This document shows positions 7,109-23,516 of a DNA stretch of 23,594 bases, piece after piece. A program made the translations under genes and the position numbers. The DNA comes from a virus. The stretch spans positions 1 through 23,594 of IMG/VR virus record IMGVR_UViG_3300009181_000348. The stretch is one strand, 5' to 3'. The notes beneath the pieces were generated by a model. That model did not search any database. It saw only the letters and a list, made by a program, of their open reading frames with translations, and had not been told where the DNA came from. How positions within the stretch are numbered: the stretch's first letter is position 1; each line of letters begins with the position of its first letter.

Positions 7109-8847
7109 TGGCACAATTCGGCAGCTCGCGTGGCATTACGGCGCAATCTGTTGCTGGGGTCTTGGCGGACAATGGCGACACAATTGTCAATCCCAGCACG
7201 CAATTTGGAAATTCTCCACTCGGCATTGCGCCGATTAGCCAGGCGCTATACGGCATTGCCAACCCGACATTTGACAATTTGCCGCCAGATCCGTTTGCGG
7301 CAATCAAAGATTCCGTCAACCCCCTTCCTTATTGGTCTATCTCAAATAGCAGCTCCGACGCCATTGACATCAACATGTCATACGACGACACAACCAAGAC
7401 CTACTCGGTGCTCATTGACCCAGCTGGTGCCGTCATCGGGGATTATGTAACTTTGACAACTAGGAGCTTCATTACAACAGACGACAATCTGGCTCTGCGA
7501 CAAAAAGCCCTAGCTATCTTGCAGAAAATTGGGACATATTCAGGCACAACGCAGTTCAATCTTGCTTTAACGGCGACAGTTTATGATCACAATGATGTGG
7601 TGCTAACAACATATACGGTTGGGACGGTTTACGACAACACCACCTGGACCTCAATTAGCGGATTCACAACGACGGGAGTTACTACAGTCAATGCATCTGC
7701 GGAGTATGTTGACCTTTCCTTTGTCCTAACTGTCACCGCAACGGTCACAAGTGGTGTTTCCGTCAAAATCAAGTCACTCATACTGTCCAGCAAAATCGGT
7801 GCAAGCGGGTCATTTGTCGTTACCGAAACCTTTACGAGCAGCTCTACCTGGACGGTTCCCCCTGGCGTGACCAGCTTGATTGCGGTCGTAGGGGTAGGAG
7901 CTGGCGGCGGCGGGGGCGGTGGACCATTTGCAAATACCACGGCTGGACCCAGCGCGTGCGGTGGCGCAGGGGGCGGAGCATCTCCGTGGGTCATTCTGCG
8001 TGACCTAACGCTAGGAACAGCAACCAGCGTATCTGTTGGCATTGGGGCTGGAGGCGTTGGTGGCACTGCGGCGGGCGCGGGGACTGGTAGTTCCAATGTG
8101 TTGCTCCAGGGCGGCATCGGCGCGGCTGGTGGTGCAACTACATTTGGTTCATTCCTGACCATTACTGGCGGCGGAGCTGGTGCCGCTGGCACAGTCACAA
8201 CTACGGGCACGGCGGTCGCAGTGAGCGGCGGCACAGCAGGACAATCAACAGCCGTTTACTACAACACTGGAATAGTTGCTGGGACTGCGGGCGGTAACAG
8301 TGGGGCGGGCGGCACAGCAGTTGGCGCAAGAGATGGAGTGGCTGGGGGAGCAGTCGGTGCGTCTGACAGGTTAATTTATCCATATCTTACCTTTAGCGGT
8401 TCTGCAAATTCCGCTGGTAGCGCAACTATGGCTGGCTGGAACTTACCAAGTGCAAGCCGTGCTGTCGTTGCTGGTACTGCGGGCATTTCTGCATCTGGCA
8501 CCGCAGGATTTGGCGGTTCTGGCGGTGGAGGCGCGGGGGCGCGGCAAAGTGGCAGCGGCACGGCAAGCCTATTTGTTGGAAATGGTGGGAATACAGGAGC
8601 TTGGGGTTCTGGCGGGGCTGGCGGCGCTGCCGTAGCTGGATCGGTGGCAAGCTCTCAATTATCAACTGCGTATACGACACGCGCTGGCGATGGCGGTAGC
8701 GCTGGCGCGAACAGCGGCTGTGGCGGAGGCGGTGGCGGCGCCCTTCTACTGAATGCAGTCGGTAGTGACTCAATAAAACTTGGTGGCACTGCTGGAGCTG
8801 GGGGCGCTGGGGCTGGCGGCTGTATCGTCCTTGTATACGCTGGATAA
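7108..8847 (+). CDS. Glycine-rich tail adhesin
   Basis: Encodes 579 aa, with the ATG overlapping the previous stop (TGATG). Residues 1 to about 235 look like a beta-rich tail-attachment part. From about residue 240 (TFTSSSTWTVP, then a Gly-only run near residue 268) to the end the protein is a glycine-rich array with GGAGG, GAGGVGGT and GGGGGA motifs and short intervening loops. Such domains are known from phage adhesins, where polyglycine type II helices form a sandwich and the variable loops bind the receptor. It is therefore the likely host-range determinant. The Gly-rich DNA gives long proline-rich reading frames on the other strand that are not genes. Confidence 0.72.
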   Translation: MAQFGSSRGITAQSVAGVLADNGDTIVNPSTQFGNSPLGIAPISQALYGIANPTFDNLPPDPFAAIKDSVNPLPYWSISNSSSDAIDINMSYDDTTKTYSVLIDPAGAVIGDYVTLTTRSFITTDDNLALRQKALAILQKIGTYSGTTQFNLALTATVYDHNDVVLTTYTVGTVYDNTTWTSISGFTTTGVTTVNASAEYVDLSFVLTVTATVTSGVSVKIKSLILSSKIGASGSFVVTETFTSSSTWTVPPGVTSLIAVVGVGAGGGGGGGPFANTTAGPSACGGAGGGASPWVILRDLTLGTATSVSVGIGAGGVGGTAAGAGTGSSNVLLQGGIGAAGGATTFGSFLTITGGGAGAAGTVTTTGTAVAVSGGTAGQSTAVYYNTGIVAGTAGGNSGAGGTAVGARDGVAGGAVGASDRLIYPYLTFSGSANSAGSATMAGWNLPSASRAVVAGTAGISASGTAGFGGSGGGGAGARQSGSGTASLFVGNGGNTGAWGSGGAGGAAVAGSVASSQLSTAYTTRAGDGGSAGANSGCGGGGGGALLLNAVGSDSIKLGGTAGAGGAGAGGCIVLVYAG

Positions 8848-10486: not shown

Positions 10487-11670
10487 CAGACGCCTTAGCC
10501 AAGGCGCAGATCATCCAGCAAGCGCGCATGCCGCGCAAGGCGCACCCAGACGGCTGGGAGCCAGGCGTGCGTTGGGATGAGTCCACCCGCACGGGAGCGA
10601 TCACCGTCAGCTCCAACAAGGCGAGCCCAGACTGGGATTTACTCCTGTCCGAGTGGGGCTTTGACCCAGCCAAGTTCTGCGTCGTGGACGACACGATCCA
10701 GTTCCGTACCTGGGACGCAGCTACGGGCGAGGGCAATGTCCAGCGGTTCTATTACTACCGAGCGCAGATCGGTCTGCGTTCGCCAGAGGATGACGCGGAT
10801 GTTGCCAAGCTTGCCGAGCTAATTAGCAAGCGAAAGCCAAAGCCGATCAAAGAGGTCGGGATTGGCGGTCAGCTGGTTGTCGCCCTGAGCGATTGGCAGA
10901 TCGGACAGCGCGGCACCGACGAGTCAGTTGAGCGCATCCTTCGCCTCGTTGACGAAATCCCAGCTCGTTGGCGCGAGCTCCAGAAGCTCGGGGTGCCGCT
11001 GAAGGGGATTACGCTCCTGGGTCTTGGCGACCTGGTTGAAGGTTGCGAAGGCTGGTATCCCGCCCAGGCATTCCTGTCTGAGTTGAACGAGCGCGAGCAG
11101 CGCACCCTAGTGCGCCGACTCCTGGTCAAGATTGTGGAGTCATGTGCCGATGTCGCACCGACGCTCGTTGCGGTAGTCGGCGGCAATCACGGCGAGGCTC
11201 GGCGTGGCGGCAAGGCGTATACCGACAGCTCGGACAACGGGGATGTTGAAGTGGCTGAACAAGCCGCCGAGATATTTGCCGCCAACCCAGCCTACAAAGA
11301 CCGCGTGGCGTTCCTCATCCCTCGGGACGAGTTGACGATTGCCCTGGATGTCGGCGGCACCATTGTCGGGTTGACGCACGGTCACTTGGCAAAGCGTGGA
11401 GCTGGTGCGGCGAACAAGATTGAGAATTGGTGGAAGGGACAGGCACTCGGCATGCGAGCTGCATCCGAGACGACGCTGCTCATCTCTGGGCACTACCACC
11501 ATCTCCTTGTCAACACCATTGGTCCGAGGACGCATATCCAGGCTCCAGCAATGTGCGGACCGTCAGCTTGGTTTAGCGACATCACGGGAGTTGGCGACTC
11601 GCAAGCTGGCGCGCTATCTCTTGTGATCGGCGACGGCACTTGGGACCATCTCCGAATCTTGGCAAAGTGA
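10474..11670 (+). CDS. Calcineurin-like metallophosphoesterase
   Basis: The ATG at 10474 is chosen because GGGGGGAG lies six bases before it; this gives 398 aa. Metallophosphoesterase motifs appear in order: SDWQIG (Asp140, with Gln142 in place of the usual His), GLGDLVEG (Asp186), GGNHGE (Asn238, His239), THGH (His302, His304) and GHYHH (His340, His342). About 130 N-terminal residues precede the catalytic domain and may bind DNA or a partner. Members of this superfamily cut phosphodiesters or nucleotides; the substrate here is unknown, with a DNA end-processing role (Mre11-like) one option. It is the last gene of the late block and is followed by a hairpin. Confidence 0.8.
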   Translation: MSKLTDALAKAQIIQQARMPRKAHPDGWEPGVRWDESTRTGAITVSSNKASPDWDLLLSEWGFDPAKFCVVDDTIQFRTWDAATGEGNVQRFYYYRAQIGLRSPEDDADVAKLAELISKRKPKPIKEVGIGGQLVVALSDWQIGQRGTDESVERILRLVDEIPARWRELQKLGVPLKGITLLGLGDLVEGCEGWYPAQAFLSELNEREQRTLVRRLLVKIVESCADVAPTLVAVVGGNHGEARRGGKAYTDSSDNGDVEVAEQAAEIFAANPAYKDRVAFLIPRDELTIALDVGGTIVGLTHGHLAKRGAGAANKIENWWKGQALGMRAASETTLLISGHYHHLLVNTIGPRTHIQAPAMCGPSAWFSDITGVGDSQAGALSLVIGDGTWDHLRILAK

Positions 11671-11689
11671 TCAGCTAAGATACGAAAGC

Positions 11690-11714
11690 GCCTGGTGGTC
11701 CCTTCCCACCAGGC
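11690..11714. terminator. Hairpin between convergent late and early units
   Basis: A perfect 9-bp inverted repeat GCCTGGTGG / CCACCAGGC with a 7-base loop lies 19 bases after the phosphoesterase stop and before the convergent minus-strand gene. There is no long T run on either side, so it may be a weak or factor-aided terminator. Its position at the meeting point of two opposing units makes a bidirectional terminator the best reading. Confidence 0.6.
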
Positions 11715-11766
11715 ACCCGTTCCGCCGTCAGAAGTGCGCGTACCTCCCGCGACTCTGGCGGCGGAG

Positions 11767-11976
11767 CTACTCCGCGGCGTTCAGCTTGGCGATGCGATAT
11801 TCCATGATCTGGTTGATCTCATTTGCGCGAGCGACAAAGCGCTTGAAGTTCTTGAGATTGCGGGCGTCAAGATTTCCCTGAGCAATCTTTGCCTTAGCGT
11901 TGCCAATGTTAGCCAGGTTGTAAACGATGGCAGCCTCAAGCTCCTGAACATTCATGGTGTAAATGTTGTTTGCCAT
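11767..11976 (-). CDS. Small early protein of unknown function
   Basis: Encodes 69 aa from the ATG at 11976, chosen because GAGGAGGG lies three bases before it; the frame is open further upstream without a comparable ribosome site. The protein is helical and basic in the centre (IGNAKAKIAQ, KNFKRFVARANEINQIM) and has no recognised domain. It is the second gene of a minus-strand unit whose promoter lies near 12158-12186. Its stop codon TAG sits in the loop of a small hairpin (GCGGAG / CTCCGC, 11761-11775), perhaps part of transcription termination on this strand. Confidence 0.65.
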   Translation of the reverse strand: MANNIYTMNVQELEAAIVYNLANIGNAKAKIAQGNLDARNLKNFKRFVARANEINQIMEYRIAKLNAAE

Positions 11977-11987
11977 GTTCCCTCCTC

Positions 11988-12119
11988 TCAGTAAACCCTG
12001 AGATTCAGAACAAAGTTCTGAACCTGGAGCTGGTAGATCGCCAGTCCCCTGACCTGTTGGAACCAGAAGGCGAACTCTTGAACCTTTCGCGCCACTTCCA
12101 CCAGAAACAGCTCGTTCAT
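11988..12119 (-). CDS. 43-aa early protein, unknown
   Basis: A short reading frame starting ATGAACGAG with AGGAGGG a few bases before it, just downstream of a clear promoter and leader hairpin. It encodes 43 aa beginning MNELFLVEVA and ending LNLRVY; the middle is rich in aromatic residues and Gln (FAFWFQQ), compatible with an amphipathic helix. It ends 11 bases before the next gene's start. No family is recognised. A perfect 8-bp inverted repeat, TTCAGAAC / GTTCTGAA at 12004-12022, lies in its 3' part. The gene call rests on the ribosome site and leader. Confidence 0.6.
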   Translation of the reverse strand: MNELFLVEVARKVQEFAFWFQQVRGLAIYQLQVQNFVLNLRVY

Positions 12120-12186
12120 CCGACCCTCCTTCCTCGGGAACCTCTCCCGACAAGTCAAGTATATACCCTAGAGCTTACGCTGTCAA
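12120..12186 (-). promoter_or_regulatory. Early promoter cassette with leader hairpin
   Basis: On the minus strand TTGACA (12186-12181), a 17-bp spacer and TATACT (12163-12158) form a near-consensus sigma-70-type promoter. The spacer holds TAAGCTCTA, the reverse of the TAGAGCTTA box shared by the early promoters. About eight bases after the -10, TCGGGA / TCCCGA (12150-12134) forms a hairpin that would lie at the mRNA 5' end, followed at once by AAGGAGGG and the 43-aa gene. Confidence 0.82.
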
Positions 12187-12519
12187 ATCCTTGAGCAGCC
12201 TCTCCCAGAGGTCCATTGACCTCCTGACCGCAGCTGCCCTCCCAGCGTCCCTGAAGTCGCCAGTGTTGGCGAGTGTGTCCTGGCACATGTCCGCAACATG
12301 GATCAGCTCGGCGAGCTGGAAGGCGGTTGCAACCAGGTTAGTCCCGTTGGACGCGACAGCGTAGATGGCGCGCTTCTCAGCGTATTGCTCAGCTGTGAGC
12401 TCTTGGCAGTCGTAGCACGCGATCCTGTCGGCTTCCTCATGGTTGTAGTGGGACTGGCTAAAGTCCGTTCCCTCCATGAAGTCGGCGAGTGTCGCCCCGA
12501 TCCTGATTCCCTTAGCCAT
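12175..12519 (-). CDS. 114-aa early protein of unknown function
   Basis: Encodes 114 aa from an ATG preceded by AGGGGGTGG. The sequence starts MAKGIRIGATLADF, carries a CYDC pair near residue 35, and is otherwise helical, with ELIHVADMCQDTL and a basic stretch RAAAVRRSMDLWERLLKDL. A single Cys pair is not enough to call a zinc site. Its promoter and untranslated leader (12520-12603) are nearly the same as those of the SprT-like gene 8.4 kb away, so the two should be expressed together. The coding sequence ends inside the promoter of the next minus-strand unit. Confidence 0.7.
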   Translation of the reverse strand: MAKGIRIGATLADFMEGTDFSQSHYNHEEADRIACYDCQELTAEQYAEKRAIYAVASNGTNLVATAFQLAELIHVADMCQDTLANTGDFRDAGRAAAVRRSMDLWERLLKDLTA

Positions 12520-12603
12520 TTGTTACCACCCCCTTTCTTGGAGCTCTGGGTCGCATTCCCGCCCCTACACCCTAAGTCTAAGCTATAGAGCTTACGGTGT
12601 CAA
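12520..12603 (-). promoter_or_regulatory. Early promoter with conserved leader, copy A
   Basis: On the minus strand TTGACA (12603-12598), a 17-bp spacer and TAGACT (12580-12575) form the promoter, with TAAGCTCTA directly after the -35. The transcribed leader contains GGGCGGGA, then ACCCAGAGCTC and GAAAGGGGGTGGT, the last being the ribosome site. The same blocks in the same order occur at 20933-20975. The conserved leader suggests a shared RNA-level function or a recent duplication. Confidence 0.8.
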
Positions 12604-12615
12604 GCGCCCAGGCGT

Positions 12616-12653
12616 GCTCAGCTGAGCCCCCAAAGGTTAAGATTTCTTAACCT
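12616..12653. promoter_or_regulatory. Palindromic operator sites, copy A
   Basis: Between the two divergent promoters lie a perfect 12-bp palindrome, GCTCAGCTGAGC (12616-12627), and an inverted repeat, GGTTAAGA / TCTTAACC with two bases between (12635-12652). The core TTAAGANNNCTTAACCT recurs in the second divergent region at 21047-21063. Position 20 bases before a -35 box suggests a regulator binding site. Confidence 0.6.
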
Positions 12654-12672
12654 AAGAATCTGGTCTAGGGGC

Positions 12673-12742
12673 TTGACAGGCTAGGCGCTAGAGCTTACCT
12701 TTGATATGTAGGGGGCTTCCCCTGGAGACAAAGGAGGAGATC
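12673..12742 (+). promoter_or_regulatory. Early promoter cassette with leader hairpin
   Basis: TTGACA (12673-12678), a 17-bp spacer and TACCTT (12696-12701). CGCTAGAGCTTA overlaps the upstream edge of the -10. A hairpin AGGGG / CCCCT with a four-base loop (12710-12723) follows, then AAGGAGGAG just before the ATG at 12743. It faces away from the copy A minus-strand promoter. Confidence 0.82.
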
Positions 12743-12955
12743 ATGAACGATCTGTTTCAGGTGATCGGACTTTCGGACGAGGACAACAAGCGCATTGAGG
12801 ATGCGCTCGTCAAGGGCTTAGAGCGAGCGGAGCGCGAGCTAGACATCTCGCATCTGTCGGTTGAGAGCCAGGCGGCGGTCGGTCGCCGACGAAACGAGCT
12901 GCGCGGCATGTCGTATGACGAGCAGCTGGACAACCTCCTAAACCTGGAGGACTGA
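12743..12955 (+). CDS. 70-aa early protein, unknown
   Basis: Encodes 70 aa from the ATG that follows AAGGAGGAG by four bases; an upstream in-frame ATA/ATG region lies inside the promoter and is not used. The protein is acidic and helical (LSDEDNKRIEDALVKGLERAERELDI, given here as two joined blocks around residues 10-35) and ends in DEQLDNLLNLED. No domain is recognised. It is alone between two promoters, so it is the first gene of a three-step series of promoter-led small genes. Confidence 0.75.
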   Translation: MNDLFQVIGLSDEDNKRIEDALVKGLERAERELDISHLSVESQAAVGRRRNELRGMSYDEQLDNLLNLED

Positions 12956-12960
12956 GGGAG

Positions 12961-13029
12961 TTGACAGCCCTAGACGCTAGGGCTTACACTCCAGATGCGG
13001 GCAAGAGGCTCGCAGAAAGAGAGGAAAAC
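12961..13029 (+). promoter_or_regulatory. Early promoter cassette with leader hairpin
   Basis: TTGACA (12961-12966) starts five bases after the previous stop; an 18-bp spacer and TACACT (12985-12990) follow, with CGCTAGGGCTTA in front of the -10. A six-pair hairpin (12997-13002 with 13008-13013, one G-U pair) precedes the ribosome site GAGG before the ATG at 13030. Confidence 0.8.
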
Positions 13030-13410
13030 ATGGGGCAGTACGGATGGAAGGAGCCGTCGGAGGTCCAGGTCGGCGATGTGGCTACCCACTTTGTCGGCTC
13101 GGATAGCTACGGAGTCCGCGTTTCTAAGATTCAGCGTTTTGCCAGCGGCAAGCGCAAGGGCGAAATCAAGTATGTCTGGACTCAGAGAATGAACGCCAGG
13201 AACCGAGATGTCATCATCTGCGCGGTGGACGAAAAGGGTTTCACCGAGCTGAACGGTGGCGCAAAGTTCTACGCAAAGCTTGAGAAGGTCTGCCGACACA
13301 TCAAGCGCTGCGAGTGCAACCGAGGACACGAGGTCATCCTGGTCGGGGGCGGCTGGTGGGACAAGCTCCGAGTCGGACAAGCGGTTGATTATTCAGATCC
13401 AAGCTTCTAG
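13030..13410 (+). CDS. 126-aa early protein of unknown function
   Basis: The ATG at 13030 is taken because it follows the promoter, leader hairpin and GAGG; upstream in-frame codons lie within the promoter. The protein begins MGQYGWKEPSEVQVGDV, has a beta-rich, basic middle (SKIQRFASGKRKGEIKYVW) and a Cys cluster in VCRHIKRCECNRGHE, which might bind zinc. It ends in VGQAVDYSDPSF. The alternation of strands around a VGD turn resembles small SH3-like or ASCH-like folds, but no family is claimed. Confidence 0.7.
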   Translation: MGQYGWKEPSEVQVGDVATHFVGSDSYGVRVSKIQRFASGKRKGEIKYVWTQRMNARNRDVIICAVDEKGFTELNGGAKFYAKLEKVCRHIKRCECNRGHEVILVGGGWWDKLRVGQAVDYSDPSF

Positions 13411-13414
13411 GGAG

Positions 13415-13484
13415 TTGCGGGGCGTAGCACACATGTGCTACGCTCCAGTTGGCGGGAGTTCCGCCAGAAGGGAAGGAGGGAATC
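13415..13484 (+). promoter_or_regulatory. Variant promoter cassette with palindromic operator
   Basis: TTGCGG (13415-13420), an 18-bp spacer and TACGCT (13439-13444). The surrounding bases GGGAGTTG and CTCCAG match the 12961 cassette, but the TAGAGCTTA box is replaced by an inverted repeat, GCGTAGCACA / TGTGCTACGC with two bases between (13422-13443). A GGCGG / CCGCC hairpin (13451-13465) and AAGGAGGG precede the ATG at 13485. The palindrome may be an operator for a different regulator. Confidence 0.65.
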
Positions 13485-13709
13485 ATGGTTGACATCGGGC
13501 TGGATGTGCTGGATGTGAGGGCGGCAAGTGGTGCCGAGTTTGTCCCAAACAACAGGAAGGGTGCTGACACTCTGGGCTTGATCCTTGGGTACAAGGTCTA
13601 TGTAAACCAGGTGGTCAGGGTTGACGGCTGGATGTACCAGGCAGTGGTCGCCAAGCTTGTCGCCAGGAAAGTTTCCGTGTTGAATTACACGGCGCTGTCG
13701 GCGCTGTAA
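13485..13709 (+). CDS. 74-aa early protein, unknown
   Basis: Encodes 74 aa; the ATG at 13485 follows AAGGAGGG by four bases, which decides the start over an upstream in-frame ATG inside the leader. The sequence is hydrophobic and beta-rich (DIGLDVLDV, GLILGYKVYVNQVVRVDG, KVSVLNYTAL). No domain is recognised. Its stop overlaps the next start (TAATG), so it is the first gene of the long early/middle operon. Confidence 0.65.
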   Translation: MVDIGLDVLDVRAASGAEFVPNNRKGADTLGLILGYKVYVNQVVRVDGWMYQAVVAKLVARKVSVLNYTALSAL

Positions 13710-14023
13710 TGAGAGCTGCTGGAGAGGGGACACTTTTAGCGGTGGGGTGGGAGGATGAGTTCCTTGGGACAGCCTCCCAGTTCACCACTGCTGGCATACG
13801 CCGAGTTGCGGTCTATGACCTGGTTGCAATCTTAGCCAAGCTTGCAAACGAGGCGCAAGCTATGTGCAAGAAACACACCGAGGAGTGTGATCATATTGAC
13901 GAGGCGATAGAGTTTGCCGAGTTCAACATTTTGAGCGCGTATGTTGGACAGGGAATGCCAGTGTTTATGACGCGCAAGACATTTGCTGAATGGCAGGAGG
14001 AGGTTGACTATGAAGCGGAATAA
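13709..14023 (+). CDS. 104-aa protein of unknown function
   Basis: Encodes 104 aa from an ATG overlapping the previous stop. There is little ribosome site of its own, so expression is by coupling. It has a hydrophobic beginning (TLLAVGWEDEFLGTASQF), a helical middle with LVAILAKLANEAQAM, a Cys/His patch (CKKHTEECDH) and an acidic end (EWQEEVDYEAE) whose codons form the AGGAGGAGG ribosome site for the next gene. The patch could bind a metal, but no family is recognised. Confidence 0.6.
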   Translation: MRAAGEGTLLAVGWEDEFLGTASQFTTAGIRRVAVYDLVAILAKLANEAQAMCKKHTEECDHIDEAIEFAEFNILSAYVGQGMPVFMTRKTFAEWQEEVDYEAE

Positions 14024-14162
14024 GACCTGGAAGGAGCTGCGAGTTGCGCGAGACCAGCGCCGCGTTGACATTGCACGATGGAGGCGAGACTCGCTTTATC
14101 TTTCGTTTGCGCTTGTGGCGGTCCTCGGGCTCTACATGCTTTCCGTCTTAAGGCATGCATGA
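14010..14162 (+). CDS. 50-aa single-TM protein
   Basis: A short gene starting at ATGAAGCGG, nine bases after AGGAGG. Its N-terminal half is strongly basic (KRNKTWKELRVARDQRRVD, then ARWRRDS) and is followed by one hydrophobic helix (residues 30-46, YLSFALVAVLGLYMLSV) and a short LRHA end. This suggests an inner-membrane protein with its basic part in the cytoplasm. Its stop overlaps the methyltransferase start (ATGA). A similar small protein lies at 18028-18171. Confidence 0.7.
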   Translation: MKRNKTWKELRVARDQRRVDIARWRRDSLYLSFALVAVLGLYMLSVLRHA

Positions 14163-14791
14163 TCCCGTCTAAATATCTTGCAGCTCCAGAGTTTCACGAG
14201 AAGTTCCACCGAGAGTTGCTTGCGACGGATCGCTGGAATGCGTTTGCTTACATCTACGACCAGCTGGCTCGGCTGCACCGACCAGTCGGCATCGTTGAGA
14301 CGGGCTGCGCGAGGCTGGCTGGCAATTGGATCGGTGACGGCGACTCCACGGTTGTCTGGGCATGGATTGCCAAGACGCTGGGCGGTCTTGTCACGAGCTA
14401 CGACATCTCACCCGACAGCTGCAAAGTTGCCAGATACCTGGCACCGACCGCGAATGTCGTTGAGATGGATTCCATCAAGGGGCTGGCAACATATCCAGCT
14501 CCAGACATGATTGACTTTCTGTACCTGGACTCTATGGATTACGACGGCGATCCGAGTGCGCTGCATCATCTTAAGGAGCTCGGTACGGTTTGGAACAACT
14601 TGCAGCCAGGCACGATTATTGCCATTGACGACAACCTCGGGGCTGGCGAAGGCAAGCATAAGTTTGTTCTGCGCCGACTTGCAATCTCTGGCATTGAGCC
14701 AGTGGTCTGGGGGCGAGTCGTTATCTGGCGCAAGCCGATCCAGGGACCATCATGGGAGGAGATGACAGACAATGAAGCCAACCATCGGTAA
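14159..14791 (+). CDS. Class I SAM-dependent methyltransferase-like protein
   Basis: The ATG at 14159 overlaps the previous stop and gives 210 aa. Motif I appears as GIVETGCARLAGNW, the acidic post-motif position as TSYDISPDSC, and the motif after it as VVEMDSIKG; DFLYLDSMDYDG and IIAIDDNL follow. This order fits the Methyltransf_24 group of class I methyltransferases. Motif I has lost the usual GxGxG (ETGCARLAG), as in many members of that group. No DNA methylase motif (DPPY or PC) is present, so the target is probably a small molecule, glycan or protein. It overlaps the next gene by 20 bases. Confidence 0.72.
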   Translation: MIPSKYLAAPEFHEKFHRELLATDRWNAFAYIYDQLARLHRPVGIVETGCARLAGNWIGDGDSTVVWAWIAKTLGGLVTSYDISPDSCKVARYLAPTANVVEMDSIKGLATYPAPDMIDFLYLDSMDYDGDPSALHHLKELGTVWNNLQPGTIIAIDDNLGAGEGKHKFVLRRLAISGIEPVVWGRVVIWRKPIQGPSWEEMTDNEANHR

Positions 14792-15632
14792 AGCTATTGA
14801 CCCGAGCCGCGTGGGGCTCAGCAAGTCCACGATTGTCGCCGCATCGCTGTGCCAGCGCAAGGCGTATTTCGGAGAGAAGGTGCGCGATAGTCAAGGGCGC
14901 CGCATCTCTATCCCGATGCCAGAGCGGGTGCTGTTTGGTGTTGCGATTGACAACGCAGTTCAGCACATTCTGTGGAACATCCGCGAAGGCGTGGAGTTCA
15001 GCGACGGGCTGCTAGACGCGGCGGTTGAGGACGGGCTCGCCGCAATGGATGGCAGACCTGGCTCCGAGGAGCTTGACGCGATTGCGATTCAGGACGAGCT
15101 CCAGGAGTCGCTCTACCGATTTAAGACCGAGGTTCTTGACAAGGACATCATCAACACGGAGAAGTCGGTGCTGATGCTCCAAGGTCTGGACGGCGAGTCG
15201 TTGCGATACGGCGATTTGATTGGCACGCCCGACATCTTGCAGCTTGGCATTCACGCGGCGATCTACGACATCAAGAGTTCGCCAAAGCGCAAGTCGGAGC
15301 GCGACCTGTATTCGCCAGAGATGGCACACTACGCAACCATGTATTTGGAGCTGTTCGGCGTGCTGCCAAAGATCGGCTACATCACCTGGGTGCGCTCGCA
15401 GTCAACGAGGGGCTGGCAGTTCCTCGGGGGCGAGTCAACGCTGATGCATACGGTTCTAGCTGAGGGGTACCGCACGGTCACCCGTGCGCTCCTGGAGGCG
15501 GAGTCGGTGGATCGGTTGCCGTTTAATACGGCGTTTTGTGGGTCGTGCGAGTGGAAGCTCCCGCGTCCCGAATTGGCATTTGACGGCTGCGCGATTGGGC
15601 AGTCTGTCACAAGTTTGGAGGTCAGGGCATGA
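14772..15632 (+). CDS. Cas4/RecB-like PD-(D/E)XK exonuclease
   Basis: Encodes 286 aa. GTPDILQLG (Asp154) and AIYDIKSS (Asp166, Lys168) are the nuclease core; GVAIDNAVQH (His65) is the upstream GxxxH-type motif. Four cysteines, Cys27 near the N-terminus and Cys256, Cys259 and Cys273 near the C-terminus, have the layout of the 4Fe-4S cluster of Cas4 and AddB nucleases. It probably resects DNA ends to give 3' single strands for the Rad52-like protein encoded next; the two genes overlap by four bases (ATGA). There is no CRISPR array or other Cas gene here, so it is a phage recombination nuclease. Confidence 0.82.
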   Translation: MKPTIGKAIDPSRVGLSKSTIVAASLCQRKAYFGEKVRDSQGRRISIPMPERVLFGVAIDNAVQHILWNIREGVEFSDGLLDAAVEDGLAAMDGRPGSEELDAIAIQDELQESLYRFKTEVLDKDIINTEKSVLMLQGLDGESLRYGDLIGTPDILQLGIHAAIYDIKSSPKRKSERDLYSPEMAHYATMYLELFGVLPKIGYITWVRSQSTRGWQFLGGESTLMHTVLAEGYRTVTRALLEAESVDRLPFNTAFCGSCEWKLPRPELAFDGCAIGQSVTSLEVRA

Positions 15633-16345
15633 GCGAGAAGTTCAAGCAATTGTCGGCACATTTCCCAGCGTCGGATGTACGCAAGCGCCCAGGGCGCGGC
15701 GGCATTGAGCTTAGCTGGGTTGAGGCACGGGTGGTCACAGATCGGCTCAACGAGGTTCTTGGGCATGACGCCTGGAGCTTCACCGTTCCAGAGATTGTGT
15801 CCAGCGGTTCCCCGTCGGTAGTCAAGGGTCGCCTGGAGGTGTTCCGAGCTGACGGGTCGGTCTCGGTCCGAGAGGACTTTGGCTATTCCACGGGTGGCTC
15901 AGGAGAGGATCTCAAGGAGGCGGTCTCAGACGCCATCAGGCGCGTCGCCAGCCTCGTGGGTGTGAGTTCATACCTTTACGCGCACTCGGGCGGCTCTGAG
16001 AGCCTCCAGAGGGCAAATGCGGGCATTTCTGCGCCACAGACTCGGGCGCCTTTATCGGTGCCTATGGGAGCTCCACTTTCGGCAGACCAGCAGCTCGTGG
16101 TCAAGGCGGCAATGCTGTTCTCGCAGTCTGCCGACACATGCAGCCACGGCGAGCAGTGGCAGCTAAAGCCAGCTGGCACCTCTAAGGTCACGGGCAAGCT
16201 CTATGGACCGTTCTGGGCGGCATCGCATAAGACGCCAGACGGCTGGTGCAAGGACAAGCCGAGCCGAGAGTTTCTGGCTGTAAACCCGACCGAGGTAAAG
16301 CCAAAGATGGTGCCAGAGGACATTGGCGAGGAGCTGCCGTTCTAA
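15629..16345 (+). CDS. Rad52/Sak-like single-strand annealing protein
   Basis: Encodes 238 aa. The N-terminal 130 residues contain ELSWVEARVVTDRLNEVLG, then a beta sheet (WSFTVPEI, VKGRLEVF) and DLKEAVSDAIRRVASLVGV followed by SSYLY, the pattern in Rad52-like annealing proteins in which a helix with xxAxSDAxKR leads to a G-x-x-LY end. The C-terminal half has a separate domain with Cys, His, His and Cys (CSHGEQW, SHKTPDGWC) that may bind zinc. It probably anneals single strands made by the upstream nuclease and supports recombination-dependent replication. Its stop overlaps the next start (TAATG). Confidence 0.75.
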   Translation: MSEKFKQLSAHFPASDVRKRPGRGGIELSWVEARVVTDRLNEVLGHDAWSFTVPEIVSSGSPSVVKGRLEVFRADGSVSVREDFGYSTGGSGEDLKEAVSDAIRRVASLVGVSSYLYAHSGGSESLQRANAGISAPQTRAPLSVPMGAPLSADQQLVVKAAMLFSQSADTCSHGEQWQLKPAGTSKVTGKLYGPFWAASHKTPDGWCKDKPSREFLAVNPTEVKPKMVPEDIGEELPF

Positions 16346-16926
16346 TGGCGGTCACCGAATTTCGCGTTGAGCGAGTGGCGCGAGCAGACATTGCACAGTT
16401 CATAGAGCGGTGGCATTACTCGGGAAGCATAAACGGGTGCATTGCTGATTATTGCTTTGCGTTGTATGACGGACAGACAATGATTGGTGCAATGTTCTAC
16501 GGGAGGATGGCAATGGCAAACCAGTGGAAACGGTTTGGTGTCCGACCAGAGGATGTCACGGAGCTAAGGAGGCTTTGCTGCATTGACGAAACGCCCAAAA
16601 ACACGGAGTCTTTCTTTATCGGGTCAACGCTACGCTGGCTTAAGAAAAACACAGGGGTCAAAACGGTGGTCAGCTATGCCGATTCGGAGTATGGGCACGC
16701 GGGGGTTATCTACCAGGCGAGTAATTTCAGGATGGAGGGGTTTAGAAAGGGTGCCAGGGTCATCATGTTTGGGGGGCGGAGGTATCATGACAAGGCGATT
16801 AGGACAAAATATAAAGGCGAGCTTAAGCCGTTTGCGATGCGAATTGTAGCTGCGCTTGCAAGCGGTGAAGCCGAATACCAAGAGACCGCTGGCAAATTCT
16901 GCTATGTCTACCAGCTTAAGAAGTAG
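16345..16926 (+). CDS. Mom-like DNA modification protein (GNAT fold)
   Basis: Encodes 193 aa from the ATG overlapping the previous stop. Conserved patches of phage Mu Mom relatives are visible in order: WHYSGSI (residues 23-29), a strand with GAMFYG (48-53), ELRRLCCID (73-81), PKNTESFF (84-91), SYADSEYGHAG (110-120) and YQASNF (123-128). Mom modifies adenine in phage DNA and blocks many restriction enzymes. The protein is close to the expected size, with no truncation. Position next to recombination and replication genes fits action on replicating DNA. No Com-like translational activator was recognised, though several small zinc-ribbon proteins are present. Function is inferred from the family. 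Confidence 0.8.
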   Translation: MAVTEFRVERVARADIAQFIERWHYSGSINGCIADYCFALYDGQTMIGAMFYGRMAMANQWKRFGVRPEDVTELRRLCCIDETPKNTESFFIGSTLRWLKKNTGVKTVVSYADSEYGHAGVIYQASNFRMEGFRKGARVIMFGGRRYHDKAIRTKYKGELKPFAMRIVAALASGEAEYQETAGKFCYVYQLKK

Positions 16927-16935
16927 GAGGGATCT

Positions 16936-17373
16936 ATGGGGCTTTGGATTAAGTGGGCGACCAACGCTCACAAGGACGCAATGATCAGCCGACTGACCGA
17001 TTTGCAGTTCCGAGCTGTGATGGTGATTCTGTCGGAGGCAAAGGAGCTACGAAAGGGCGGCGAGTTCAGGGACCGTCGCCACCTGGCGGCGGTAATCGGT
17101 CCGAGGCTGGCGCGAGCCATCCCCGTGTTGATTGCCGAAGGCTTCCTAGGCGAGTCTCAGGGCGGTCTCGTAAGCGTCTCGCACTGGTCTCGCTGGCAAG
17201 TGGACGCGACCGCGACCGAGCGTCAGCAAAGGCATCGTGCGGGAAAAGGGGCTGAGTCACGGTTTAGTCACGCGCTAGAGCAGAGCAGAACAGAACAGAG
17301 CAGAACAGAGTCTCTTACTAATACAAAAACCATTAGCTCAATTGGTGAAATTATGAGAGGGGTAGGCAAGTGA
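16936..17373 (+). CDS. Replication-initiator-like winged-helix protein
   Basis: Encodes 145 aa; TAGGAGGG lies before the ATG. The N-terminal 90 residues (LWIKWATNAHKDAMISRL, LTDLQFRAVMVILSEA, then RHLAAVIG and a helix pair ending GGLVSVSHW) match the winged-helix domain of phage replisome organisers. The linker holds two QSRTE repeats coded by a 15-bp repeat. The protein is short: the usual helicase-loader or DnaD-like C-terminal part is missing. It probably binds the origin, which may be the repeat inside its own gene. It is coupled to the next gene by a GTGA overlap. Confidence 0.65.
   Translation: MGLWIKWATNAHKDAMISRLTDLQFRAVMVILSEAKELRKGGEFRDRRHLAAVIGPRLARAIPVLIAEGFLGESQGGLVSVSHWSRWQVDATATERQQRHRAGKGAESRFSHALEQSRTEQSRTESLTNTKTISSIGEIMRGVGK
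17281..17310 (+). repeat. Six tandem CAGAR pentamers inside initiator-like gene
   Basis: The pentamers CAGAG and CAGAA alternate six times without interruption, giving a 15-bp higher-order repeat that encodes QSRTE twice. In lambdoid phages the origin iterons lie inside the initiator gene, so this is a candidate origin. It could also be a simple replication-slippage expansion in a linker. Confidence 0.7.
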
Positions 17374-17579
17374 GTCCGACATTTGAGTACCGATGCGATA
17401 AGTGCAATGCCAGCGAGGATTATGTGTTTCCGATCAACAATGACCCAGAGGTCATCTGCCAGAAATGCGGAGTCACGATGTGGAGGGCTTACGCAGTCCC
17501 GAGTGTCGTATTCCGAGGCGGAGGCTGGGCTAAGAACGACCGAGCGAAGGAGGGTAAAAATGACAGCACCAAAGACTGA
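17370..17579 (+). CDS. FmdB-like zinc-ribbon protein
   Basis: Encodes 69 aa from a GTG in a GTGA overlap with the preceding stop. The start SPTFEYRCDKCNASED and the second pair VICQKCG (Cys9, Cys12, Cys31, Cys34 approximately) are the FmdB-type zinc ribbon, followed by a basic, Gly-rich tail. FmdB-like proteins are often found as small regulators in bacteria and phages; the exact role is unknown. Its 3' end carries GGAGGG, the ribosome site of the next gene. Confidence 0.8.
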   Translation: MSPTFEYRCDKCNASEDYVFPINNDPEVICQKCGVTMWRAYAVPSVVFRGGGWAKNDRAKEGKNDSTKD

Positions 17580-17823
17580 TACGCAAAGAGATCAGGTGCT
17601 CCGACTTCTGTATTCCAGGGGCGAGGCGGGCATCTCTGCCATTGAGCTTGACCGCAAGTGGGGCATCTACCGAGCTGCGGCGCGAGTCAACGAGCTGCGG
17701 AAGCTCGGGCACCGCATCACAACGACGCGGAAGCATGAGCAGACGGCGGTCTATGTCCTGGAGTCGCCAAAGCGGGAGACCGACATGGGCAATGGGCTCA
17801 TGCAGCAGGAGGTGTTCGGATGA
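17560..17823 (+). CDS. Small winged-helix/HTH DNA-binding protein
   Basis: The ATG at 17560 follows GGAGGGTAAAA and gives 87 aa. TQRDQVLRLLYSRGEAGISAIEL and the following YRAAARVNELRKLGHRI form a helix-turn-helix with a wing (TTRKHEQTAVYVLE), typical of small phage proteins with a HTH domain used for regulation or replication. It overlaps the FmdB-like gene by 20 bases and the next gene by four (ATGA). A regulator role for the early promoters is possible. Confidence 0.7.
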   Translation: MTAPKTDTQRDQVLRLLYSRGEAGISAIELDRKWGIYRAAARVNELRKLGHRITTTRKHEQTAVYVLESPKRETDMGNGLMQQEVFG

Positions 17824-18041
17824 AGGTCTCGGACGCTGCGATCCTGGACGCCATTGGTCGGCTCAGGGCGGCAAGTGGCGTAGCTCCGACCTACCGCGAG
17901 CTCGCAGTTGAGCTAGGGCTTGCCAGCTGGTCCTCGGCTCGGTACCGTGTGCTACAGCTGCAAGTTGGCGGCAGTGTAGAGCGGCGGGATCGGGTTGCCC
18001 GATCCGTGCAGCTGAAGGGGGACAATCATGGACAAGCATGA
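17820..18041 (+). CDS. Stand-alone LexA-like DNA-binding domain
   Basis: Encodes 73 aa. ILDAIGRLRAASGVAPTYREL, followed by AVELGLASWSSARYRVLQL and RVARSVQLKG, follows the LexA N-terminal domain: the G-x-x-PT-x-REL element, the recognition helix and the A-R-S-x-x-L end. The LexA peptidase domain is absent; the gene stops after the DNA-binding part. It could therefore bind DNA as a repressor that is not cleaved in the SOS response. It is a candidate regulator of the early promoter boxes. Start and stop overlap its neighbours. Confidence 0.72.
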   Translation: MKVSDAAILDAIGRLRAASGVAPTYRELAVELGLASWSSARYRVLQLQVGGSVERRDRVARSVQLKGDNHGQA

Positions 18042-21521: not shown

Positions 21522-21589
21522 TTGACAGGGTAAACGCTAGAGCTTAAGATGGTGATGTCGGGAGATGTTCCCGACAGAAGGGGGTCCAG
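21522..21589 (+). promoter_or_regulatory. Early promoter cassette with leader hairpin
   Basis: TTGACA (21522-21527), a 17-bp spacer and TAAGAT (21545-21550), with CGCTAGAGCTTA in front of and overlapping the -10. The leader has a 7-bp hairpin GTCGGGA / TCCCGAC (21557-21575), then AGAAGGGGG and the ATG at 21590. The hairpin sequence is almost that of the 21093 and 12186 cassettes. Confidence 0.82.
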
Positions 21590-23374: not shown

Positions 23375-23516
23375 GCGCCCGCCTAATACATGTGTTCTAT
23401 GTAAACAGCCCTATAGGGCAGCATATGAATACCGTATAGCAGGGAAGGCTAAGCATGGCTATTGCAGCTATGCATGCGCCATGCGTGCAGCTAGGGCTAA
23501 CATAGAGACACGATGA
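23364..23516 (+). CDS. 50-aa treble-clef-like zinc protein
   Basis: The ATG at 23364 (CTAATGGCG) gives 50 aa and overlaps the upstream gene by 11 bases. NTCVLCKQPY and YCSYACAMRAARA give a CxxC and a CxxxC about 20 residues apart, like a small zinc finger in which the second pair starts a helix. The function is unknown; the next gene is an HNH-like gene, and such small fingers are common at that place. The ATGA overlap links them. Confidence 0.65.
   Translation: MAPKRPPNTCVLCKQPYRAAYEYRIAGKAKHGYCSYACAMRAARANIETR

Follow-up and report, generated by a model that had tools for sequence, protein, structure and literature searches.

At the junction between the gene at 13030-13410 and a long operon, the viral DNA analysed here carries an inverted repeat, which we tentatively read as an RNA stem-loop (H1) embedded in a decayed promoter cassette. 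Its pairing is kept in relatives through matched changes on both arms, and the promoter hexamers around it are poor. Such an RNA hairpin appears somewhat more likely than the swapped regulator site proposed in the initial annotation, the operator being a close rival. The window, that is, the whole stretch analysed, corresponds to virus record IMGVR_UViG_3300009181_000348 (23,594 bases, positions 1-23,594). Its tape-measure-like gene matched 521 phage records, every one below 60% identity and mostly from Arthrobacter (199), Microbacterium (172) and Gordonia (93) phages, so that the host is likely actinobacterial. Against isolated phages, the kinase gave 64 records, also below 60% identity, and no match was obtained for positions 11000-18000 by megablast or, by tblastn, for the 14778 and 15629 proteins (E 1e-5) and the 13709 protein (E 0.01).

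The 13415 cassette and its palindrome

The palindrome, GCGTAGCACA-CA-TGTGCTACGC at 13422-13443, has 10-bp perfect arms and a 2-base centre (Table 1). The cassette runs in the order TTGCGG, 18 bases, TACGCT, CCAG, TTGGCGGGAGTTCCGCCAG, the ribosome-binding site GGGAAGGAGG and the ATG at 13485, CTCCAG overlapping the candidate -10 and extending past it. This organization over 13415-13466 agrees with the initial annotation, which had described a cassette keeping the outer frame of the 12961 cassette, with TTGCGG as -35 and a palindrome spanning the spacer and the -10. Ordinary cassettes consist of TTGACA, 17 or 18 bases, TAxxxT, a predicted hairpin starting 4-10 bases on and then a ribosome-binding site, and most of them have near the -10 a CTAGRGCTTA-like box in either orientation (repeated box, TARRCGCTAGRGCTTA). 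As had been claimed, this common box is absent from the 13415 cassette and another palindrome stands instead, in the window as well as in the three orthologues described below (L037, L004 and L032); only the letters given for the 12961 box need correction, since CTAGGGCTTA and not TAGAGCTTA is found there. The 13415 cassette is indeed palindromic, but this is not its unique trait, the spacer of the 12961 cassette being palindromic too (AGCCCTAG-ACG-CTAGGGCT, 12966-12984).

Table 1. Features of the 13415 cassette, its neighbouring genes and the ordinary promoter cassettes of the window
Feature	Position	Strand	Remarks
Ordinary promoters of the window	12186-, 12603-, 12673+, 12961+, 21093+, 21522+		Counterparts in L037, L004, L032
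Ordinary cassette TTGACA-17-TACCTT with CTAGAGCTTA box	12673..12701	+	
Ordinary cassette TTGACA-18-TACACT, palindromic spacer	12961..12990	+	Likely read-through source for the operon
Upstream gene	13030..13410		Stop codon 13408-13410; 57% identical in L037
GGAG, frame common to the 12961 cassette	13411..13414	+	Directly 3' of the upstream stop codon 13408-13410
Candidate -35 TTGCGG	13415..13420	+	3/6 to TTGACA; TTGACG in L004 and L032
Hairpin H1	13419..13446	+	Folds as RNA into 12 pairs, one of them G.U (13419-13430 with 13435-13446), around a 4-base loop
Perfect palindromic core of H1	13422..13443	+	
Candidate -10 TACGCT, TGC before (extended -10 like)	13439..13444	+	18-bp spacing; GACGCT in L004 and L032
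Hairpin H2, TTGGCGG-GAGTT-CCGCCAG	13449..13467	+	Position of the leader hairpin in ordinary cassettes
Ribosome-binding site GGGAAGGAGG, purine-rich	13470..13479	+	By eye
Operon first gene	13485..13709	+	74 aa from ATG; 55% identical in L037
Operon second gene, phrog_13182	13709..14023	+	104 aa, function unknown; 54% identical in L002/L003

Length alone makes this palindrome only mildly unlikely and would not convince. It is the only inverted repeat of the window with perfect arms of at least 10 bp separated by 8 bases or fewer, against a mean of 0.27 in 30 first-order Markov sequences, a chance figure that is optimistic because inverted repeats are abundant in the window as a whole (18 vs 3.9 for arms of at least 8; 5 vs 1.0 for arms of at least 9). 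When one G.U is allowed, the repeat grows to 13 pairs (13419-13446), and one repeat of at least 12 pairs with at most one G.U is seen vs a mean of 0.12 in 60 Markov sequences. The palindrome is judged real because it is conserved in relatives with paired changes, and comparison of these sequences confirms it.

Conservation in related viruses

Three other contigs span the locus, and the orthologous cassette is present in all of them: IMGVR_UViG_3300031857_016204 (L037), 3300032287_003417 (L003/L004) and 3300032303_001454 (L002/L032/L074). In L037, the cassette precedes the orthologous first gene, after which the contig ends; the 22 letters of the palindrome are identical to those of the window, and one base turns the outer G.U of H1 into A-U, giving 13 perfect pairs. 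In L004 and L032, where the cassette precedes the second gene onward, the arms are GCGTCCCAC and GTGGGACGC around a 3-base centre. Compared with the window, two arm pairs of H1 are changed on both sides, the loop or centre of H1 differs in length by one base, being one base shorter, and H2 has its own double change. The cassette is therefore kept across relatives, with arms identical in L037 only.

The neighbouring genes suggest that it is the operon, rather than the preceding gene, that the element accompanies. Indeed, the gene upstream in L003 does not align with the 13030 gene of the window, and the second gene (54%) and the 14778 gene follow the cassette there, although the first gene of the operon differs. 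The 14778 protein is 72-73% identical in the L003/L004 and L002/L032/L074 contigs; neither this protein nor that of the first gene (13485-13709) has a family match. The L003 upstream gene is weakly like the window 21284 gene (24/66 residues), downstream of which the window has an ordinary cassette at 21522. In L002, the first operon gene (116-394) has a start module like the window 12743-12955 gene (19/27 residues) and a body like the window 22086-22316 gene (33/59 residues), which suggests that modules are shuffled among small genes.

Several candidate relatives were discarded. L088 is a close relative that ends short of the locus, and L031, which matches distantly at the protein level, has three promoter-pattern matches that were judged by eye not to be cassettes. 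Among viral contigs, a first pattern scan returned 25 stretches, of which L004 is a true orthologue and the others were judged chance by eye from their flanks; a second returned 51, with only L004, L037 and L074 real, the other 48 having 4-7 matching arm pairs and unrelated flanks. A search with the first operon gene gave 8 stretches of viral contigs with no relative among them. In genome contigs, 199 pattern stretches obtained with the alignment of the 14778 protein included no relative, and the regulon pattern was found in none.

Covariation and RNA folding

In the alignment of the four orthologues (window, L037, L004 and L032; 19 pairs of H1 and H2, 76 cells), 97.4% of the cells are paired; shifting the partners by 1-3 columns lowers this to 39.5-46.1%. 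L004 and L032 are near copies, and only two arm versions, in effect two lineages, stand behind these four sequences. Double changes affect three of the 19 pairs, two belonging to H1 and one to H2. Another pair of H1 is A-U in L037 and G-U in the other three sequences, and one outer pair is no longer formed in two of the sequences. Among 500 shuffles, 2 attained the observed values for cells with a double change and for the covariation score; the number of doubly changed pairs (reached in 293/500) and of further pair types (384/500) is unexceptional. The -10 hexamer begins within one of these doubly changed pairs, at a base that is T in the window and G in L004. By hand arithmetic, two changes per 9-base arm at matching places and with matching letters would be expected about once in 324 (1/36 x 1/9). 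Pairing is thus kept through two-sided changes, which is not exclusive to RNA: the matched arm changes speak against an accidental palindrome and would fit an RNA stem or a symmetric operator equally.

The leaders containing H1 and H2 are predicted to fold with z of -5.0, -6.1, -2.7 and -2.0 in the four orthologues (0, 0, 3 and 8 of 200 shuffles as stable), the H2 region alone having z -2.1; Rfam gave no match at the gathering threshold. A leader stretch with z <= -2 is found in 14 of the 25 folded cassettes, 13415 among them. When the promoter stretch itself is folded as RNA, z <= -3.0 is reached in 6/25 cassettes, namely the 13415 type in four contigs and the 12961 type in the window (z -4.3) and L037 (z -3.6). 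At the base of the 12961 fold, GGAG pairs with CTCC, letters common to the 13415 frame. Other same-strand cassettes downstream of a gene fold poorly (21522, z 0.9; L004 7701, z -0.5; window 12186-, z -0.1; L037 7844-, z -0.5). Values of -2.0 for L004 8443 and -2.3 for L032 7688 come from a run using 17-bp spacing for both, which misplaced their -10 (matrix scoring used 18), and the divergent L037 8260- has z -2.4. Strong folding of the promoter stretch is particular to the 13415 and 12961 cassettes and is no general trait.

A faint promoter and proposed read-through

With a -35/-10 matrix applied leave-one-out, the 21 ordinary cassettes, 13415 excluded, score 13.3-20.6 bits, a range favoured by the fact that the matrix was built from cassettes picked by hexamer (TTGACA-like, TAxxxT) and including several mutual orthologues. 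From this set, window 6086-, L032 12907+ and L089 6512+ were dropped as chance, and L004 71- and 461+ were added. The 13415 cassette has 1.46 bits in the window and L037 (0.9% of all positions are equal or better) and 6.76 bits in L004 and L032 (best 0.15% of all positions). The loss differs between lineages: in the window and L037 the -10 is kept and the -35 is poor, whereas the reverse holds for L004 and L032 (-35 part, -5.2 bits in the window and 6.0 in L004/L032; -10 part, 6.7 and 0.7), and the hexamers are spaced by 18 in the former and 17 in the latter. On the plus strand at 12660-13700, the best sites are 12961 (18.5 bits) and 12673 (15.1), 13415 lying outside the best nine, and the L004/L032-type site is the second-best place in L004 440-1100. 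A plain promoter scan listed 6 sites vs 8.3 in shuffles; five of them are ordinary cassettes and 13415 is unlisted.

The proposed operator swap is borne out in part: it keeps its frame, its loss of the common box and its palindrome, but an acting promoter is doubtful (1.5 or 6.8 vs 13.3-20.6 bits). That the long operon would leave the common regulon does not follow either: no terminator-like site is listed between the 12961 promoter (12990) and 13485 in a scan of low power (18 found, 16.8 expected), and read-through is possible. Between the divergent promoters 12603- and 12673+, the palindrome AGGTTAAGATTTCTTAACCT (window 12634-12653), whose L037 counterpart (8291-8310) is a perfect 20 bp, AGGTTAAGAATTCTTAACCT, is a good candidate for a classical operator.

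On the RNA reading, the 13415 cassette would be related to the ordinary promoter cassettes, with its promoter decayed, and the operon message would mainly stem from transcription that starts at the standard promoters 12673 and 12961 and reads through. Provided that transcription passes through H1, as we infer, H1 and H2 would be tandem hairpins directly before the ribosome-binding site of this message. They would then most likely mark an intercistronic boundary, acting in processing, in protection of the downstream message or in partial reduction of read-through. This reading is favoured because the centre changes in length, a G.U pair is present and the promoter is faint; indeed, a one-base change of the centre would be harmless to a loop and awkward for a dimer operator. 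Against it, the identity of the 22 letters in the window and L037, beside an upstream protein of 57% and a first-gene protein of 55% identity, suggests that the sequence itself, and not the pairing alone, is constrained, and for this reason, given above all the 57%-identical upstream protein, the RNA reading has been weighted lower and the operator higher. Moreover, the position of H2, that of a leader hairpin, the TG before the -10 in both lineages (TGCTACGCT, TGGGACGCT) and the rank of the L004/L032 site argue against decay, and the promoter may survive. In an unlikely variant, the left arm of the hairpin would lie upstream of the start point, being carried by read-through RNA and absent from locally started RNA, and the phage would exploit this to handle both types of message differently. 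The 12961 cassette, whose promoter stretch likewise folds when carried in read-through RNA, would then be another instance.

Alternative roles of the element

A possible alternative, only slightly less credible, is a dyad operator over a weak extended -10 promoter. Its ligand would be a dimeric protein distinct from the common regulator, acting as repressor or activator, whose specificity would have drifted between the two lineages. The palindrome is placed as such a site would be, from the -35 to the -10, in a frame with spacing common to the 12961 cassette and with the common box absent in all four orthologues; it is the same in the window and L037 despite their diverged flanking proteins, and symmetric changes would be expected of dyad operators also. 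A dyad is present, over a promoter that is weak. As an operator, it is weakened by arms and a centre length that differ between lineages, by one base for the latter, while pairing is kept. It is also weakened by the perfect pairing over 12-13 positions, which exceeds what dimer operators usually need. The search for palindrome-like sites returned no second good one: there is no further copy within 3 mismatches in the window, where a single site at <=6/22 is found, at 23402, and none at <=5 mismatches in the window, L037, L004, L032 and L089, these contigs being fragments, in which the best others have 6 mismatches (window 23402 and L032 5446, one each).

Candidate regulators are at hand: among the operon's products are an HTH_39 protein and one with a LexA-type DNA-binding domain. 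However, the HTH_39 protein (window about 17560-17823 vs L002 2839-3099), the one HTH protein compared, is 60% identical between lineages though the arms differ, its GIYRA-AR--ELRKLG stretch being nearly unchanged by eye. The LexA-type domain is the only one of a 73-aa protein (window 17820-18041) that by eye has no counterpart at the same place in L002/L003. A LexA-type box was also considered for the palindrome and set aside, the actinobacterial SOS consensus being unlike it. Among known phages, promoters of Adephagia (cluster K) that are SigA-like overlap inverted repeats, and the available text of PMC11373665 calls regulator binding plausible; that of PMC3203893 describes a repeat consensus varying between cluster K subclusters, and both would suit the operator.

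It is improbable that H1 is a terminator or attenuator ending part of the transcription from 12961. Its predicted stem is very stable and lies directly 3' of an open reading frame; however, no T-run follows (AGTTGGCGGG after the stem), it is unlisted among the terminator-like sites, and a different gene precedes it in L003, so that it would not be the upstream gene's own end. Elsewhere, two hairpins are likely terminators: one in L089 (6519-6552; 12 bp, 10-base loop, then CTCTTTCT), after a capsid-like gene and also resembling a promoter cassette, and GCCTGGTGG/CCACCAGGC, conserved in the window (11690-11714) and L037 (7348-7372) between the ends of apparently converging genes.

A role of H1 as DNA, either as an extruded cruciform or as the target of a nuclease, a recombinase or a replication protein, is very improbable, since the perfect palindrome with its small centre and the Erf/Rad52-type annealing protein encoded in the operon are opposed by its location in a leader, with the ribosome-binding site downstream and another RNA-like hairpin alongside. 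The operon also encodes a Mom-like DNA modification protein (window 16276-16926), whose gene is by eye missing between those of the annealing protein and the next one in L002/L003.

Known systems and biological meaning

The nearest known kind of element is the extended start-associated sequences (ESAS) of cluster K mycobacteriophages, promoter-linked inverted repeats of actinobacteriophages, described in the available text of PMC3203893, PMC11373665 and PMC12699233 as lying just 5' of start codons and overlapping SigA-like hexamers 17-18 bp apart. By analogy, the 13415 repeat is 5' of a start, over candidate -35 and -10 hexamers spaced by 18 (17 in L004/L032), and its arms vary between lineages as the repeat consensus there does between subclusters. 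As far as these sources describe them, however, ESAS are imperfect 15-17 bp repeats found several per genome, whereas here a single copy (in fragments) has perfect 10-13 bp arms, poor hexamers (1.5 or 6.8 vs 13.3-20.6 bits) and a second hairpin after it. Nor does the 13485 start have by eye the 13-bp SAS, its leader being GGGAAGGAGG and not GGGATAGGAGCCC (consensus from PMC3203893).

Cluster O mycobacteriophages, with a 17-bp repeat (PMC4351075), and Microbacterium cluster EG phages, with an 18-bp inverted repeat (PMC7302621), likewise have, in what these texts report, palindromic repeats, many in short intergenic regions of actinobacteriophages. Those are multicopy and of one sequence, in contrast to the single copy with arms differing between relatives found here. 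Microbacterium clusters EC, EF and EI are described in the same available text (PMC7302621) as having repeated intergenic motifs; a short motif repeated 5' of genes recalls the TARRCGCTAGRGCTTA box of ordinary cassettes, although its sequence is another one and the 13415 cassette is without the repeated motif.

Promoter-linked inverted repeats recur in actinobacteriophages, with a role that the available literature calls unknown or unverified. With arm changes that are matched and hexamers that fade, the 13415 element is a case for which an RNA role and an operator role would predict opposite, testable outcomes.
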